NCBI GenBank assembly: GCA_025041175.1
Contig: JAKCFJ010000001.1
Location: forward strand, 930,001-994,000
Reading direction: 5' to 3'
Length of the DNA: 64,000 nt
Source: Halobacteriales archaeon YIM A00010
GTDB taxonomy: Archaea; Halobacteriota; Halobacteria; Halobacteriales; Haloarculaceae
The notes below the pieces were generated by a model that saw only the letters and a list, made by a program, of their open reading frames with translations, did no database searches and had not been told where the DNA came from. Made by a program: the position numbers and the translations under genes. Below, piece after piece: positions 2,880 to 7,915 of the stretch (the stretch's first letter is position 1; every line of letters begins with the position of its first letter).

Positions 2880-3872
2880 TCAGTCGTTCACCGGCGTTTC
2901 GGTCCGTGGTGGTCGCTGCTCGTCGGTGTCGAACGTGATGTCCTCGGTGAACTGATCGAGCGCGATCACCAACAGCGCACCGACGACAGCGCCAACGACG
3001 CTTGCTGCGATGAGCGGTCCCGAAAGGTCGGCGGCGTTGTCGGCAATATCACTCACGGGTGCGCGCAGCGATCCAACCATCAGGCTCACCAGAAACGTCA
3101 ACGTTGCCTCTCGGTAGTGTTCGAGCGCGTAGTTGACGGCGTGTGCGATCGTGAACAGCCCGACGAGTGCGCCGACGATGAACACCGCGATCGGCGTGCC
3201 AACCGCGATCAGCGCGCTCGGATCACCGCCCCCCACGAACGAACTGAGTTCGGAGATGAACTGACCCGGCAGCCCGCTCATGTACTCGTACTGGCCCAGC
3301 ATATAGAGGATGAACGCCCCGGAGACACCCGGCAACACCATGGCGCTGATCGCAAGCGCGCCGCTCCCGAAGAGGATCACCGGCGCACTGGACCCGCCGC
3401 CGTTCTGGGTGAACCCCGCAACGAACACCGCGAGACCGAACCCCAACAGTGCTGCACCGATCCGGCCCGGCGAATCGAACGACACGTACCGATACAGCAC
3501 GACTGCGGCAGCCGCGATCAACCCGAAGAAAAACGCGGCGGTCGGTGTGGGATAGGCCTCGATGGCAGAGTGCATGATCTCCGCCATGATAGCGACCGCT
3601 GTCACCATTCCGCTTCCGAGCGCGAGCAGAAACGGTACGTCCATCTCGATGAGATCGTCGTGGAGCGCGGCGCGTCCATCCTGGGTGTGCAGCTCCGCGA
3701 GGTGTCCCACCACGCGCGGGTCGAGTCCCGCGATGGCGTCGATCAGCCGCTCGTAGATTCCTACGATGAGCGCGATCGTCCCGCCGGACACACCGGGGAC
3801 GGAGTCGGCCATCCCCATACACAGCCCCTTGAGATACACGACCAGCCACTCGCGCGGACCGTTTTCCGCCAT
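2880..3872 (-). CDS. DUF368 membrane protein, probable polyprenyl-phosphate translocase
   Basis: This 330-aa polytopic membrane protein carries the DUF368 signatures GLCMGMADSVPGVSGGTIALI (near residue 15) and a second PGVSGAFILYMLGQYE half-motif (near 190), with about eight to ten hydrophobic segments. Bacterial DUF368 proteins (PopT) return undecaprenyl phosphate across the membrane. Its ATG overlaps the stop codon of aglB (TGATG at 3870-3874), so the two are translationally coupled. The inference is that it recycles dolichyl phosphate released by AglB; this has not been shown here. Confidence 0.88.
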   Translation of the reverse strand: MAENGPREWLVVYLKGLCMGMADSVPGVSGGTIALIVGIYERLIDAIAGLDPRVVGHLAELHTQDGRAALHDDLIEMDVPFLLALGSGMVTAVAIMAEIMHSAIEAYPTPTAAFFFGLIAAAAVVLYRYVSFDSPGRIGAALLGFGLAVFVAGFTQNGGGSSAPVILFGSGALAISAMVLPGVSGAFILYMLGQYEYMSGLPGQFISELSSFVGGGDPSALIAVGTPIAVFIVGALVGLFTIAHAVNYALEHYREATLTFLVSLMVGSLRAPVSDIADNAADLSGPLIAASVVGAVVGALLVIALDQFTEDITFDTDEQRPPRTETPVND

Positions 3873-6787
3873 CAGGCCACCTTCGCTCGGGGTTCGTGTT
3901 CGTCTCCCTGGGCGTTCGGTCTCGTTCGATCGGTTCCAACGTCGTCTACAGTGGGCATCTCGGTGCTATCCACAGCGGGACTCGTGTTGGTAGTTTCGTT
4001 TGTGGTTCCGTTCCCGTTTTGCTGTAGCGTCACTTCCACCGCGGAGTCGTCTTTCCCGATGACCTGGCCTTCTGTCACGTTGGCGGTCCCGGTCCAGCCG
4101 TCGGTCGCGTTGGCGCTCTCGTTCGTCGCGTTCGTACTGAACGTGTACGGACCGGTCGCGCGGACGCTCACGTTCGTGTGCCCCGACTCGGTCCCCCACT
4201 CGTCGTAGCCCGTCGTCGAATACGGAAGCGTCATCGTGAACTGCCCTTGCTCGTCGGTCTCGGCGTGCTGTTTGTAGGTGAACGTCTCGCCCGTGCTCGA
4301 CATCTGCATCGTGACGTTGGCCGTCACGGTGGTGTTGGCCGGTCCCGTCCCGTTCACGGTCGCACCGGGAACGCGCTCGAACGTTTTCACCCACGGCTCA
4401 CCGTTCACTGCTTGCGGTCCTGCCTCTTGGCTCGCGTGGACCATCCGGTAGTGCTTCAACGCCGGAATCGGTTCGGAGGGGGTTTGCACGCCGATCCGTG
4501 ACGAGCCGTCCTGCTCGACGTACTCCCGGGCGGCGCTCATGTTGTCGAACTGCTTGAACGGGGACGAACCGTTGGATGGGAGCGTACGGATCGTAGTGGG
4601 TCCATTCTCGGTTCGAACCGGCCGCTCCTCCCAGTCGAACACCACCGGTTCCGGTTCGACCGCGCTGCCGTTGAACATGTACATCCGCGTGCGCATGCTC
4701 TCGAAGTGGCGCTGGGTCGGGATGTCTGTGAGGTGTCGGTACGTTCCCGTCTGCTGATTCTCTTGGTACAGCGGAACCGCGAGATCGCGCGCTGTGACGC
4801 TGTGGTTCGACTCGAACTGCGTCGGCGCAGAGTACTTCGAATTCGTACTCACGATCTGCCAATCGATCATCACGTACCGCGTCGGTTCCTCGCCCTCGAG
4901 GAGATCGGTTGCGTTCTCCTCGTCAGTGGCGAGTAGGAAGTCGGCGGCAGTCCGTGCGCCCTGCTGGAACGGGTTGGCGTTGGGGATGCGTTCCCCGCGT
5001 GTCGTGATCCAGTGGCCGTAATCCCACCACGCCATTATGCCGTAAGCCCCGTCTGGATAGTCATAATCGTCGGTCGGCTCGTACTCGCCGTCGTACTCCA
5101 TCGGCTCGCCATCGGGATTGTCGTAGCGTCCCTCTTCGGGCGTGTTGTTCGACAGCCACGCGAGACTCGACTGCCAGGGGACTCCATCGGGGGCGTTGTT
5201 CGCCGCGGCCTGTGTCGTCTGAAGCTCCATTCCCTGTGATCCAGTCTGGCCGGGTGCGTTCGAGCCTCCGACAGCGATGAACGGGGTGGTAATGAGAAAG
5301 ACGACGGTGAGGACGGTGAGAAACTGGTGGATTTCGATGTCGTCGACGGTCGTGGCCGCATCGAGACCGAGAAAGTCAGCGATGGTGCCCGCGAGATACC
5401 CCGTGAAAACGGCGACCGGCAGCGCGAAGTAGTAGTTGAATCGGATCTGGGTGAACACCGCGAGCGTCATGACCACGCCCCAAACGATCAGTAGCATCTG
5501 CTCGGGGCGGGTGTCGTCATCGGTTGCGATCCGAACGAGCGCGACGAACGCCCCGACGATCGCCAGGTAGAACGCAAGACCGTAGGCGGTGTTCATGACC
5601 GTGACCCAGTACCTGCGGTCGTTCGAATCCATACTGAGCGGCTGGGCTTCGGTGACGGTGCGCTGTGCGGCGGTCGTCGACAGCCCGATGAAGCGCAGCG
5701 ACTGGGACACCATGTACGAATACAGGTCGGGAAACAGGAGCGCAACGCCGCCGACCGCGAGGGCGATCCCACCGAGGATGACGACCGGATACAGCCGTCG
5801 GTCGATTCCCGTTTCGTCGAACCACCGCGCGATCGCGGCCATCACGACGAGACCGAGCGCGACGCCACCCAGGAGGAGTGGTTGAAGCAAGGAGAAATCG
5901 GTCGCGGTGAACGAGACCGTTGAGATCCGGGTGGCAACGAGCAGAGCGGCAACGACCAACGCACCGGCACCGACGAAGGCGGTGTGTTCCGGGCTTTGCC
6001 CGCGGAGGTAGTCGATCGACAGCTGCACGACGAAAAAGGCGCTGAAGATCGCGGCGAGCATGATCCCCGGCGGCCACACCCAGACGTACAGCGCGATCGC
6101 AGTCCCTGCGAGCACTGCGGCCCCAAGGGGTCGGCGGAGCGCGTCGGTTTCACGCCCCGTAAGCAGTTCGTACACGGGTTTTTCCTCCTTCGCCACCCCG
6201 ACTGCAACCATCAGCCCGAGGATTGCGAGCGCTTGAAAGAACGCCTCCGCAGCGTGGTGGTCGGAAAAGCCGACGAGGGTCCGATTGAGGAACGACCCCG
6301 TGGTGAGCGCAAGCACGAGTGCTGCCGTAAGCCCACCGAGACGTCCGCTCACCCGGCGTGCGATGAGATACACCGGAATCGCTGTGAGCGTTCCAAACAC
6401 AGCGGGAGCAAACAGAAGCGTGAGCGAAATCGTTCCCTGGTCCGGGCTTCCCAACCCGACGATGAGCGCAACGGTCGCAACGATCTGGTCGTAAAACGTC
6501 CCGAACTGCCCCGACGCCGTTCCCACCGGAAAATGCGTCCACGGATCGAACGGCATCGTCTCAGGCCAGTTGTGAACGGTGTACGTCGTCTGTCGGAGGT
6601 GGTACCACGCGTCGTTGCCCGAGAAAAACACCCCGTTGTCGGTCACGAACTGCCGCCACGTCCGAACCCGATTCCAGAACATGAACGCGAGCAACCCGAC
6701 GAGCACCGGCACGTGATACCACTTCATCACCCACTTCAACAGCCACTCCCGATATACCGCTGTCCGTTGCTCGGTCCGCTGATTCAT
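3872..6787 (-). CDS. aglB: Archaeal oligosaccharyltransferase AglB (STT3 family)
   Basis: This protein of about 971 aa transfers the lipid-linked glycan to Asn in N-X-S/T sequons on the outer membrane face. The N-terminal half is polytopic, with GNDAWYHLRQ in the first loop and a FSDHHAAEAF acidic motif further on. The soluble half holds the catalytic WWDYGHW motif (WWDxGx family), followed by beta-rich C-terminal domains. A box A at 6812-6819 (TTTTATCC on the minus strand) lies 27 nt before the ATG at 6787, so this start is preferred over the in-frame ATG at 6832. The C-terminal tail after the last beta domain is rich in N-X-T sites and acidic residues. Downstream is the coupled DUF368 gene. 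Confidence 0.95.
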   Translation of the reverse strand: MNQRTEQRTAVYREWLLKWVMKWYHVPVLVGLLAFMFWNRVRTWRQFVTDNGVFFSGNDAWYHLRQTTYTVHNWPETMPFDPWTHFPVGTASGQFGTFYDQIVATVALIVGLGSPDQGTISLTLLFAPAVFGTLTAIPVYLIARRVSGRLGGLTAALVLALTTGSFLNRTLVGFSDHHAAEAFFQALAILGLMVAVGVAKEEKPVYELLTGRETDALRRPLGAAVLAGTAIALYVWVWPPGIMLAAIFSAFFVVQLSIDYLRGQSPEHTAFVGAGALVVAALLVATRISTVSFTATDFSLLQPLLLGGVALGLVVMAAIARWFDETGIDRRLYPVVILGGIALAVGGVALLFPDLYSYMVSQSLRFIGLSTTAAQRTVTEAQPLSMDSNDRRYWVTVMNTAYGLAFYLAIVGAFVALVRIATDDDTRPEQMLLIVWGVVMTLAVFTQIRFNYYFALPVAVFTGYLAGTIADFLGLDAATTVDDIEIHQFLTVLTVVFLITTPFIAVGGSNAPGQTGSQGMELQTTQAAANNAPDGVPWQSSLAWLSNNTPEEGRYDNPDGEPMEYDGEYEPTDDYDYPDGAYGIMAWWDYGHWITTRGERIPNANPFQQGARTAADFLLATDEENATDLLEGEEPTRYVMIDWQIVSTNSKYSAPTQFESNHSVTARDLAVPLYQENQQTGTYRHLTDIPTQRHFESMRTRMYMFNGSAVEPEPVVFDWEERPVRTENGPTTIRTLPSNGSSPFKQFDNMSAAREYVEQDGSSRIGVQTPSEPIPALKHYRMVHASQEAGPQAVNGEPWVKTFERVPGATVNGTGPANTTVTANVTMQMSSTGETFTYKQHAETDEQGQFTMTLPYSTTGYDEWGTESGHTNVSVRATGPYTFSTNATNESANATDGWTGTANVTEGQVIGKDDSAVEVTLQQNGNGTTNETTNTSPAVDSTEMPTVDDVGTDRTRPNAQGDEHEPRAKVA

Positions 6788-6819: not shown

Positions 6820-6886
6820 CTTTGGAAACCATCTACACGTCTGCTGATGCGAAACACGCCTATTCCTCGATCACTGAACGGGGGAT

Positions 6887-7915
6887 ATGCGAATTTCGGT
6901 CGTCGTCTGTACCCACACTGAAGACCGATTGCCCGCCCTTCGGGACGCCATCGAGAGTGTGCTCGAACAAACGTACACCGACCGCGAACTCATCGTCGTC
7001 AGTGATGGCAACCCGGCGGTCGCCCAACGGGTTCAAGCGGAGTTCGGCGACCGCCCCGACGTTCGTGTCCGCCTTCAGGCAGCCAACCGGGGACTGCTCG
7101 CCACCCGCAACACCGGCGCGTCGCTCGCTCGGGGGGAGATCGTGGCGTTTCTCGACGACGACGCCGTCGCACACCCCGAGTGGCTCTCTGAACTCGCCAC
7201 GGCGTATCGGGACCGAACACGAGAAACCGACTCGGATTCTACACCGTCATCTGCTAGCTCCGATCTCGATCACGAGTATCCCCTCGCAGCCGGCGGGAAG
7301 ATGACGCCCGACTGGGTCGCGGGCGAACCCGAGTTTCTGCCCGCGGAGTTTTACTGGCTGATCGGCGTCACCCACCGCGGTTTTGCCGACGGGCCGGGCG
7401 AGGTTCGGAACACGCCCGGCTCGAACTTCTCGATACGGACGGAGGTGTTCGAGGAATTGGGCGGTTTCGACACGGAGATCGGGGGACGGCAGGGGGAAAA
7501 ACAGCTCCAGGGAGGAGAGACGGAGCTCTGTGCGCGGCTCCGTAACCGGTACGGCGTCGGCGTGTACTACACGCCCGACGCGCGGGTGGCCCACAAGGTG
7601 TTCGCGTACCGAACCGACCTCCGATGGCTCATCAAACGAGCGTTCTGGCAGGGCTACTCCAAGCGCGGGATGGCGGTGTTGCTCTCGGACACGACGGTAA
7701 CGGACGAGGAAACTGCGTTTTTGGGCCAGCTGCTCGGGGAGTTCATCCCGCGACGACTGTTCGATCTAGTTCGACGGCCGTCACGCGCCGCGCTCTCACA
7801 GCTGCTCGTGGTGTTCGTCCTCACGGGCGCGGTCGGTGTGGGGTACAGCTACGGCGTGTTGGCGTGGTGGTCCCCAGCCGGACTGCTCTCGTGGGTCCAC
7901 ACCAGATCGAAATAG
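6887..7915 (+). CDS. GT2 family glycosyltransferase with C-terminal membrane segment
   Basis: This 342-aa protein has an N-terminal GT-A fold beginning ISVVVCTHTEDRLPALRDAI, the metal/nucleotide motif FLDDDAVAHPEWL (about 85-95) and a downstream GGETELCARLRNRYG segment typical of the acceptor side. A hydrophobic stretch (about 300-330) should anchor it to the cytoplasmic membrane face. It is transcribed divergently from aglB, which suggests that it adds a sugar to the lipid-linked glycan like the haloarchaeal Agl glycosyltransferases. Sugar and linkage are unknown. Its last 67 bp overlap the 3' end of the convergent TrmB gene. Confidence 0.85.
   Translation: MRISVVVCTHTEDRLPALRDAIESVLEQTYTDRELIVVSDGNPAVAQRVQAEFGDRPDVRVRLQAANRGLLATRNTGASLARGEIVAFLDDDAVAHPEWLSELATAYRDRTRETDSDSTPSSASSDLDHEYPLAAGGKMTPDWVAGEPEFLPAEFYWLIGVTHRGFADGPGEVRNTPGSNFSIRTEVFEELGGFDTEIGGRQGEKQLQGGETELCARLRNRYGVGVYYTPDARVAHKVFAYRTDLRWLIKRAFWQGYSKRGMAVLLSDTTVTDEETAFLGQLLGEFIPRRLFDLVRRPSRAALSQLLVVFVLTGAVGVGYSYGVLAWWSPAGLLSWVHTRSK

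Follow-up and report, generated by a model that had tools for sequence, protein, structure and literature searches.

What is a membrane protein of the DUF368 family doing immediately behind the gene for an archaeal oligosaccharyltransferase? The question is raised by a stretch of 64,000 nucleotides from Halobacteriales archaeon YIM A00010 (contig JAKCFJ010000001.1, positions 930,001 to 994,000; the window, from here on), in which a DUF368 gene starts where aglB ends. An earlier note on this DNA had proposed that the archaeal DUF368 protein is the missing dolichyl-phosphate recycling transporter of N-glycosylation. The family is a known one and its link to this pathway is new, and we give a probability of about 0.7 to the reading that the DUF368 protein returns dolichyl phosphate for AglB. 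The proposal is partly supported, and more strongly now than when it was made, by the family assignment, the class-wide pairing of the two genes, the retention of DUF368 where the pairing is broken, and the complementation obtained with a Haloferax volcanii homologue. It is likely for Halobacteria; the word "archaeal" was too broad.

The identity of the two genes, as given in the earlier note, stands, with both exceeding the curated cut-offs of their families. The window AglB matches TIGR04154 (archaeosortase-system type) with 874 bits against a cut-off of 450, over positions 1-830 of the 831 in the profile, and it also matches the STT3 domain (PF02516) and the AglB core and L1 peripheral domains (PF22627, PF18079). 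Its translation contains AWWDYGHWI, and therein the WWDYG motif, which we take to be the catalytic motif of the oligosaccharyltransferase. An in-frame ATG further upstream, at 6832, would make a protein of 986 aa possible. The DUF368 protein matches PF04018 with 201.9 bits (cut-off 26; profile 1-227 of 246). Direct reading confirms that the stop of aglB and the start of DUF368 overlap as TGATG, with one base common to the TGA (3874-3872) and the ATG (3872-3870), an arrangement that suggests translational coupling of the two genes.

Is the pairing a peculiarity of this genome? The earlier note had called for a survey of aglB-DUF368 adjacency, and we ran it in 145 genomes of at least 90% completeness, sampled evenly over the class Halobacteria. 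DUF368 is present in 144 of the 145, and all 145 have a TIGR04154 match (144 exceeding the cut-off, with a weak match in G118). Joining the coordinates, we observe that DUF368 lies directly downstream of aglB and on the same strand in 95/145 genomes, and 1.8-3.2 kb downstream in 5 more. The weak match of G118 was left out of this join and the genome counted as unlinked; the coordinates of G047, G052 and G085 were added separately, and their aglB regions (L110, L145, L146) hold no DUF368. Tight linkage occurs in 9 of the 10 families, the tenth (f5) being the single genome G021. In three of the five spaced loci (L052, L057, L067) the intervening gene is AglM, a UDP-glucose 6-dehydrogenase of the same pathway; in L085 two other genes separate the pair, and the fifth spaced genome, G078, was counted by coordinates only. 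We have hardly any doubt that the pairing is genuine and was, very probably, selected for.

Conserved gene order could, however, be neutral leftover synteny without functional meaning. The 95 linked genomes are not 95 independent events, because the pair was probably inherited from the ancestor of the class, and the trees described below require only about 6-7 linkage changes, which speaks for such an account. We compared the neighbourhoods of 60 DUF368 genes, in most cases a single one from each genus, and 20 aglB neighbourhoods taken from unlinked genomes. In the 59 DUF368 loci other than that of the window, homologues of the genes around the window pair are found 42 times for aglB, 18 times for the AglG-like family-2 glycosyltransferase (GT2), and 0 or 1 times for every other gene. 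The surroundings of the pair are scrambled, and the pair is not. The AglG-like GT2 also has a homologue in 15 of the 20 aglB-only loci.

The spacing of the two genes is unusually tight as well. Directly upstream of DUF368 and on the same strand we find aglB in 39 of the 60 loci, and 25 of these 39 pairs have a gap of -10 to +6 nt, versus 50 of 260 other pairs of same-strand neighbours taken from these loci (Fisher p 2.8e-8; the Fisher values are indicative only, as the rows share ancestry). Overlaps by 1 or 4 nt occur in 12/39 aglB-DUF368 pairs versus 29/260 control pairs (Fisher p 0.0023). The open reading frame (ORF) caller takes the most upstream start, and single gaps may be off, in both groups alike. 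In the nearest relatives that have a name, Halobacteriales archaeon YIM A00013 (63% identity) and Actinarchaeum halophilum (62%), the order is the same and the gap is about 58-106 nt; thus it is the adjacency and not the overlap that is conserved, and the overlap in the window is one compact variant of a conserved order. We rejected the overlap as evidence standing by itself, given that the 29 control pairs overlap in the same way. With the other neighbours lost nearly everywhere and this spacing in hand, and with the fate of DUF368 in unlinked genomes, to which we now turn, leftover synteny is the least probable of the explanations that we considered.

Where the linkage is broken, a DUF368 is nearly always kept. 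Among the 45 unlinked haloarchaeal genomes, 44 keep DUF368 elsewhere, the exception being G021. In a rooted tree of 99 sequences, a single clade (SH-aLRT 97) takes in 30 of the 35 unlinked copies and no linked one. That tree was built by a quick method with SH-aLRT support only and includes 19 outgroup rows; two sequences from outside the class (L133 and L135, <150 bits) were left out, and N-terminal ORF extensions of >60 aa before the motif were trimmed from the newly added rows. A careful tree of 60 sequences recovers the same split, with 12 of 17 unlinked rows together (support 99/94). This second DUF368 lineage is never beside aglB in our sample, and occurs in families f1, f3 and f8. The unlinked-only genomes placed on the tree number 26 of 44, and 22 of them hold the second lineage; the other four (G029, G030, G054, G129) hold only the linked lineage, relocated away from aglB. 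Six genomes (G005, G025, G044, G091, G107, G143) have both a linked and an unlinked copy, and all six unlinked copies fall in the unlinked clade (the linked copies of G091 and G107 were not placed on the 99-sequence tree). The second lineage seems to have taken the place of the linked copy more than once.

As an example, G116 carries a decayed DUF368 directly behind aglB. The remnant has a start-like region; after it parts are missing, and a frame change and a stop precede a stretch with about 50% identity to residues 178-258 in the linked copy from the same genus. The intact DUF368 of this genome lies elsewhere and belongs, by its position in the tree, to the second lineage. It looks like the linked gene was lost after another copy of the same family had taken over, as expected if the function of DUF368 is needed.

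What could that function be? Bacterial proteins of the family (VCA0040 and PopT; DUF368, PF04018, COG2035) are reported to return undecaprenyl phosphate (PMC9876793, PMC12826051; both seen in excerpt). The window protein is in the same Pfam family, has about 34% identity to the Vibrio homologues, and matches their PGVSGGT and PG(V/I)SG motifs; both of its PG(V/I)SG motifs are also found in the Vibrio and Salinivibrio proteins. Across 53 archaeal DUF368 sequences 19 alignment positions are invariant, and P26, G27, S29 and G30 in the first motif and P181, G182, S184 and G185 in the second are unchanged. As we read these alignments, the paired PGxSG motifs would define the family. The window protein differs from its bacterial relatives in residing in an archaeal membrane, where its substrate would be dolichyl phosphate, in being encoded behind an oligosaccharyltransferase, and in having extra residues relative to the Vibrio homologue at about 56-75 and 199-224. 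Its scores against the NCBIfam polyprenyl-phosphate transporter models NF052563 and NF052564 are 167.1 and 90.9 bits. We are confident, if somewhat less so than about the pairing, that it is a polyprenyl-phosphate transporter. Structure prediction added little: an AlphaFold model from an alignment of 4 sequences only reached a pLDDT of 39, and a sequence search of the PDB returned no DUF368 relative. A scan of assembled contigs found only 3 relatives.

These elements can be combined into one proposed functional module. On the outer face of the membrane AglB would take the glycan off dolichyl phosphate and attach it to protein, leaving dolichyl monophosphate in the outer leaflet; the DUF368 protein, as a member of the PopT/VCA0040 family, would return this polyprenyl phosphate to the inner leaflet for reloading by glycosyltransferases. 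Most characterised archaea are reported to use dolichyl monophosphate as the carrier (PMC4476749, in excerpt), so AglB should release dolichyl monophosphate outside, which should present the same head group that DUF368 proteins handle. No phosphatase step would then be needed between the two proteins, since haloarchaeal AglB mostly uses monophosphate-linked glycans. A single transcript, often with touching stop and start codons, could match carrier release to carrier return. Homology, the conserved motifs, the class-wide linkage, and its retention or compensated loss are observed here, and the action of the bacterial proteins and the partial complementation by a haloarchaeal one come from the literature; which substrate is carried, in which direction, that N-glycosylation depends on DUF368, and that the two genes are co-transcribed, we infer. 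A bolder version, which we hold at about even odds, is that transferase and recycler formed an ancestral module of Halobacteria, in which DUF368 is a dedicated dolichyl-phosphate importer working in step with AglB and possibly touching it, and that DUF368 is so necessary that the linked gene decays only after the second, horizontally spreading lineage has taken over.

Functional data come from Haloferax volcanii, whose DUF368 protein HVO_RS12060 complements, at least in part, the growth defect of V. cholerae ΔVCA0040 under alkaline conditions, according to the excerpted report (Sit 2022, PMC9876793); we found no other functionally tested archaeal DUF368 in the literature. The locus tags of aglB (HVO_RS12050), aglG (RS12045), aglI (RS12040) and aglF (RS12035) are given in excerpts of PMC5131992 and PMC7749143, and because these tags are spaced by five, HVO_RS12060 should lie two genes away from aglB and at the border of the known agl cluster, which is described as reaching to aglM (PMC5867893, in excerpt). 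G014 (L052) itself shows the order aglB-AglM-DUF368, and this together with the tag spacing suggests that AglM lies between aglB and HVO_RS12060 in H. volcanii. HVO_RS12060 is thus a haloarchaeal DUF368 like the window protein, but one apparently separated from aglB by AglM. An initial guess at its tag, HVO_2528, was wrong; the papers with HVO_2528 concern other genes. The text of Sit 2022 does not mention aglB, and our literature search returned no paper that joins DUF368 with AglB or remarks on the closeness of HVO_RS12060 to aglB. In the excerpts of the archaeal N-glycosylation literature that we found, no protein is assigned to the return of spent dolichyl phosphate.

The survey therefore singles out a gene that nearly every haloarchaeon has and that is open to genetics in H. 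volcanii as HVO_RS12060, and in such a tractable host the carrier-return step can be put to a direct test. A further suggestion is that polyprenyl phosphates are handled by the DUF368 family in both prokaryotic domains. Were DUF368 a dedicated importer, the carrier-return step of an archaeal N-glycosylation pathway would be assigned, and there would be a model for the return of eukaryotic dolichyl phosphate.

Adjacency to AglB would fit equally well if DUF368 worked in the opposite direction, as the outward flippase of the glycan-loaded dolichyl phosphate. The H. volcanii membrane proteins AglR and Agl15, which also act in haloarchaeal N-glycosylation on dolichyl phosphate carriers, are proposed to move the loaded carrier outward, whereas we propose that DUF368 returns the empty one; and the excerpted review leaves the flippase of the AglB tetrasaccharide unnamed, with Agl15 and AglR proposed for other steps (PMC3871713). 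However, bacterial DUF368 members act on the uncharged carrier (PMC12826051, in excerpt), the haloarchaeal protein works in V. cholerae in an uncharged-carrier setting (PMC9876793, in excerpt), and some loci have polysaccharide-flippase-type proteins (cluster c7) near aglB. We consider an outward flippase very improbable, a shade less so than leftover synteny.

Several observations weigh against a DUF368 recycler serving AglB. The complementation by HVO_RS12060 is partial and its readout, in the excerpted report, is alkaline growth, and for any archaeal DUF368 our literature search yielded neither transport nor deletion data from the native host. The window protein misses the 400-bit equivalog cut-off of NF052563 and NF052564, whereas a Vibrio homologue reaches 480 bits. 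In L057 and L067, from two genera, AglM lies between aglB and DUF368 on the opposite strand, making one simple aglB-DUF368 transcript unlikely there, and 44/145 genomes hold an unlinked DUF368 copy only. G021 (L109) has AglB and no DUF368, even when a profile of 53 sequences was used and E up to 10 was allowed; it is the only such haloarchaeon of the 145, a genome of 1.9 Mb in 120 contigs, 98% complete, with two DedA-domain matches. Outside the class but within the same phylum DUF368 is found in 34 of 201 genomes; all 34 have STT3, and in 0/34 is it within 10 kb of DUF368, although contig ends limit some of these comparisons. Methanocaldococcus jannaschii, Sulfolobus acidocaldarius and Methanosarcina acetivorans have STT3 and a DedA-domain match, and no DUF368 match. 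DUF368 as a recycler for archaea in general we rejected, since most genomes of the phylum that lie outside Halobacteria lack it.

The DedA proteins deserve particular attention, as they could do the same job. Bacterial members of the DedA/UptA family (PF09335), a protein family separate from DUF368, likewise return undecaprenyl phosphate (PMC12826051, in excerpt). DedA-domain proteins occur in all 20 haloarchaea searched, and redundancy of DUF368 is therefore likely. This leads to the strongest rival explanation: DUF368 may provide general polyprenyl-phosphate return as an adaptation of the envelope to salt and pH, with no special tie to AglB, with DedA carrying much of the load, and with a linkage that is inherited and mildly useful. 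The genomes with only unlinked copies fit this account, and so does Sit 2022, which in excerpt proposes a high-salt role and notes the enrichment of the family in Halobacteria (PMC9876793). On the other hand, the pair outlasts nearly all surrounding synteny, and the near-universal presence of DUF368 is to be set against strong DedA-domain matches (E <1e-19) in 10 of the 20 haloarchaea. General return is unlikely in our judgment, although clearly less so than an outward flippase.

The features of the window and of the compared loci are collected in Table 1.

Table 1. Positions of the aglB-DUF368 pair, its neighbours and the features of other loci discussed in the text (positions without a locus are those of the window).
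Feature	Position	Strand	Size, matches or basis
aglB, archaeal oligosaccharyltransferase	6787..3872	minus	971 aa; TIGR04154, PF02516, PF22627, PF18079, WWDYG
DUF368 (PF04018) membrane protein, proposed dolichyl-phosphate recycling transporter	3872..2880	minus	330 aa
TGATG stop/start overlap of aglB and DUF368	3870..3874	minus	read directly
Divergent family-2 glycosyltransferase, AglG-like	6887..7915	plus	PF00535, NF041394
MntR/DtxR-type regulator with FeoA domain	2119-2790	minus	
AglM between aglB and DUF368	L052 8625-9983; L057 7726-9018; L067 6506-7798		
Second-lineage DUF368 loci	L036-L038, L040, L042, L075, L081, L084, L087-L090, L153, L154, L156, L158-L172		
Decayed DUF368 behind aglB in G116	L112 5771-6019	minus	
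Second AglB of the window's genome	L147 3752-6490 (G000:C4)		
Uracil permease and phosphoribosyltransferase genes before DUF368 (f28)	L138 15465-17994		homologues in L139-L141
SepRS-type gene after DUF368	L119 5565-8052	minus	by homology
SepRS-type gene after DUF368	L137 7650-10118	plus	domain tested

Besides its single DUF368, the genome of the window (5.97 Mb in 7 contigs) encodes AglB twice in full. The second copy is on contig 4 and lacks an adjacent DUF368; close to it are genes for a transposase-like protein, a nucleotidyltransferase, and a PMT_2 or YkcB-like glycosyltransferase apparently split across two frames. In the window, the AglG-like GT2 scores 417.9 bits against NF041394, under the cut-off of 440. 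The MntR/DtxR-type regulator, 89 nt behind DUF368 and on the same strand, has no homologue near DUF368 in the other 59 loci.

Outside Halobacteria but within its phylum, four genomes of f28 have aglB and DUF368 12-15 kb apart. We considered this interval as a possible glycosylation cluster and rejected it: the sole locus annotated (L138) holds a mixture of genes (asparagine synthase, a glycosyltransferase, TiaS, a chaperonin and a kinase), and because of this content the interval was not counted as support. In the same genomes DUF368 comes after genes for a uracil permease and a uracil phosphoribosyltransferase (UPRTase). The other outside-class neighbours of DUF368 (SepRS, ThiI, an epimerase, a carbamoyltransferase) have no glycosylation theme. 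In f15, DUF368 is directly followed by the gene of a class II tRNA synthetase whose C-terminal domain is that of SepRS.

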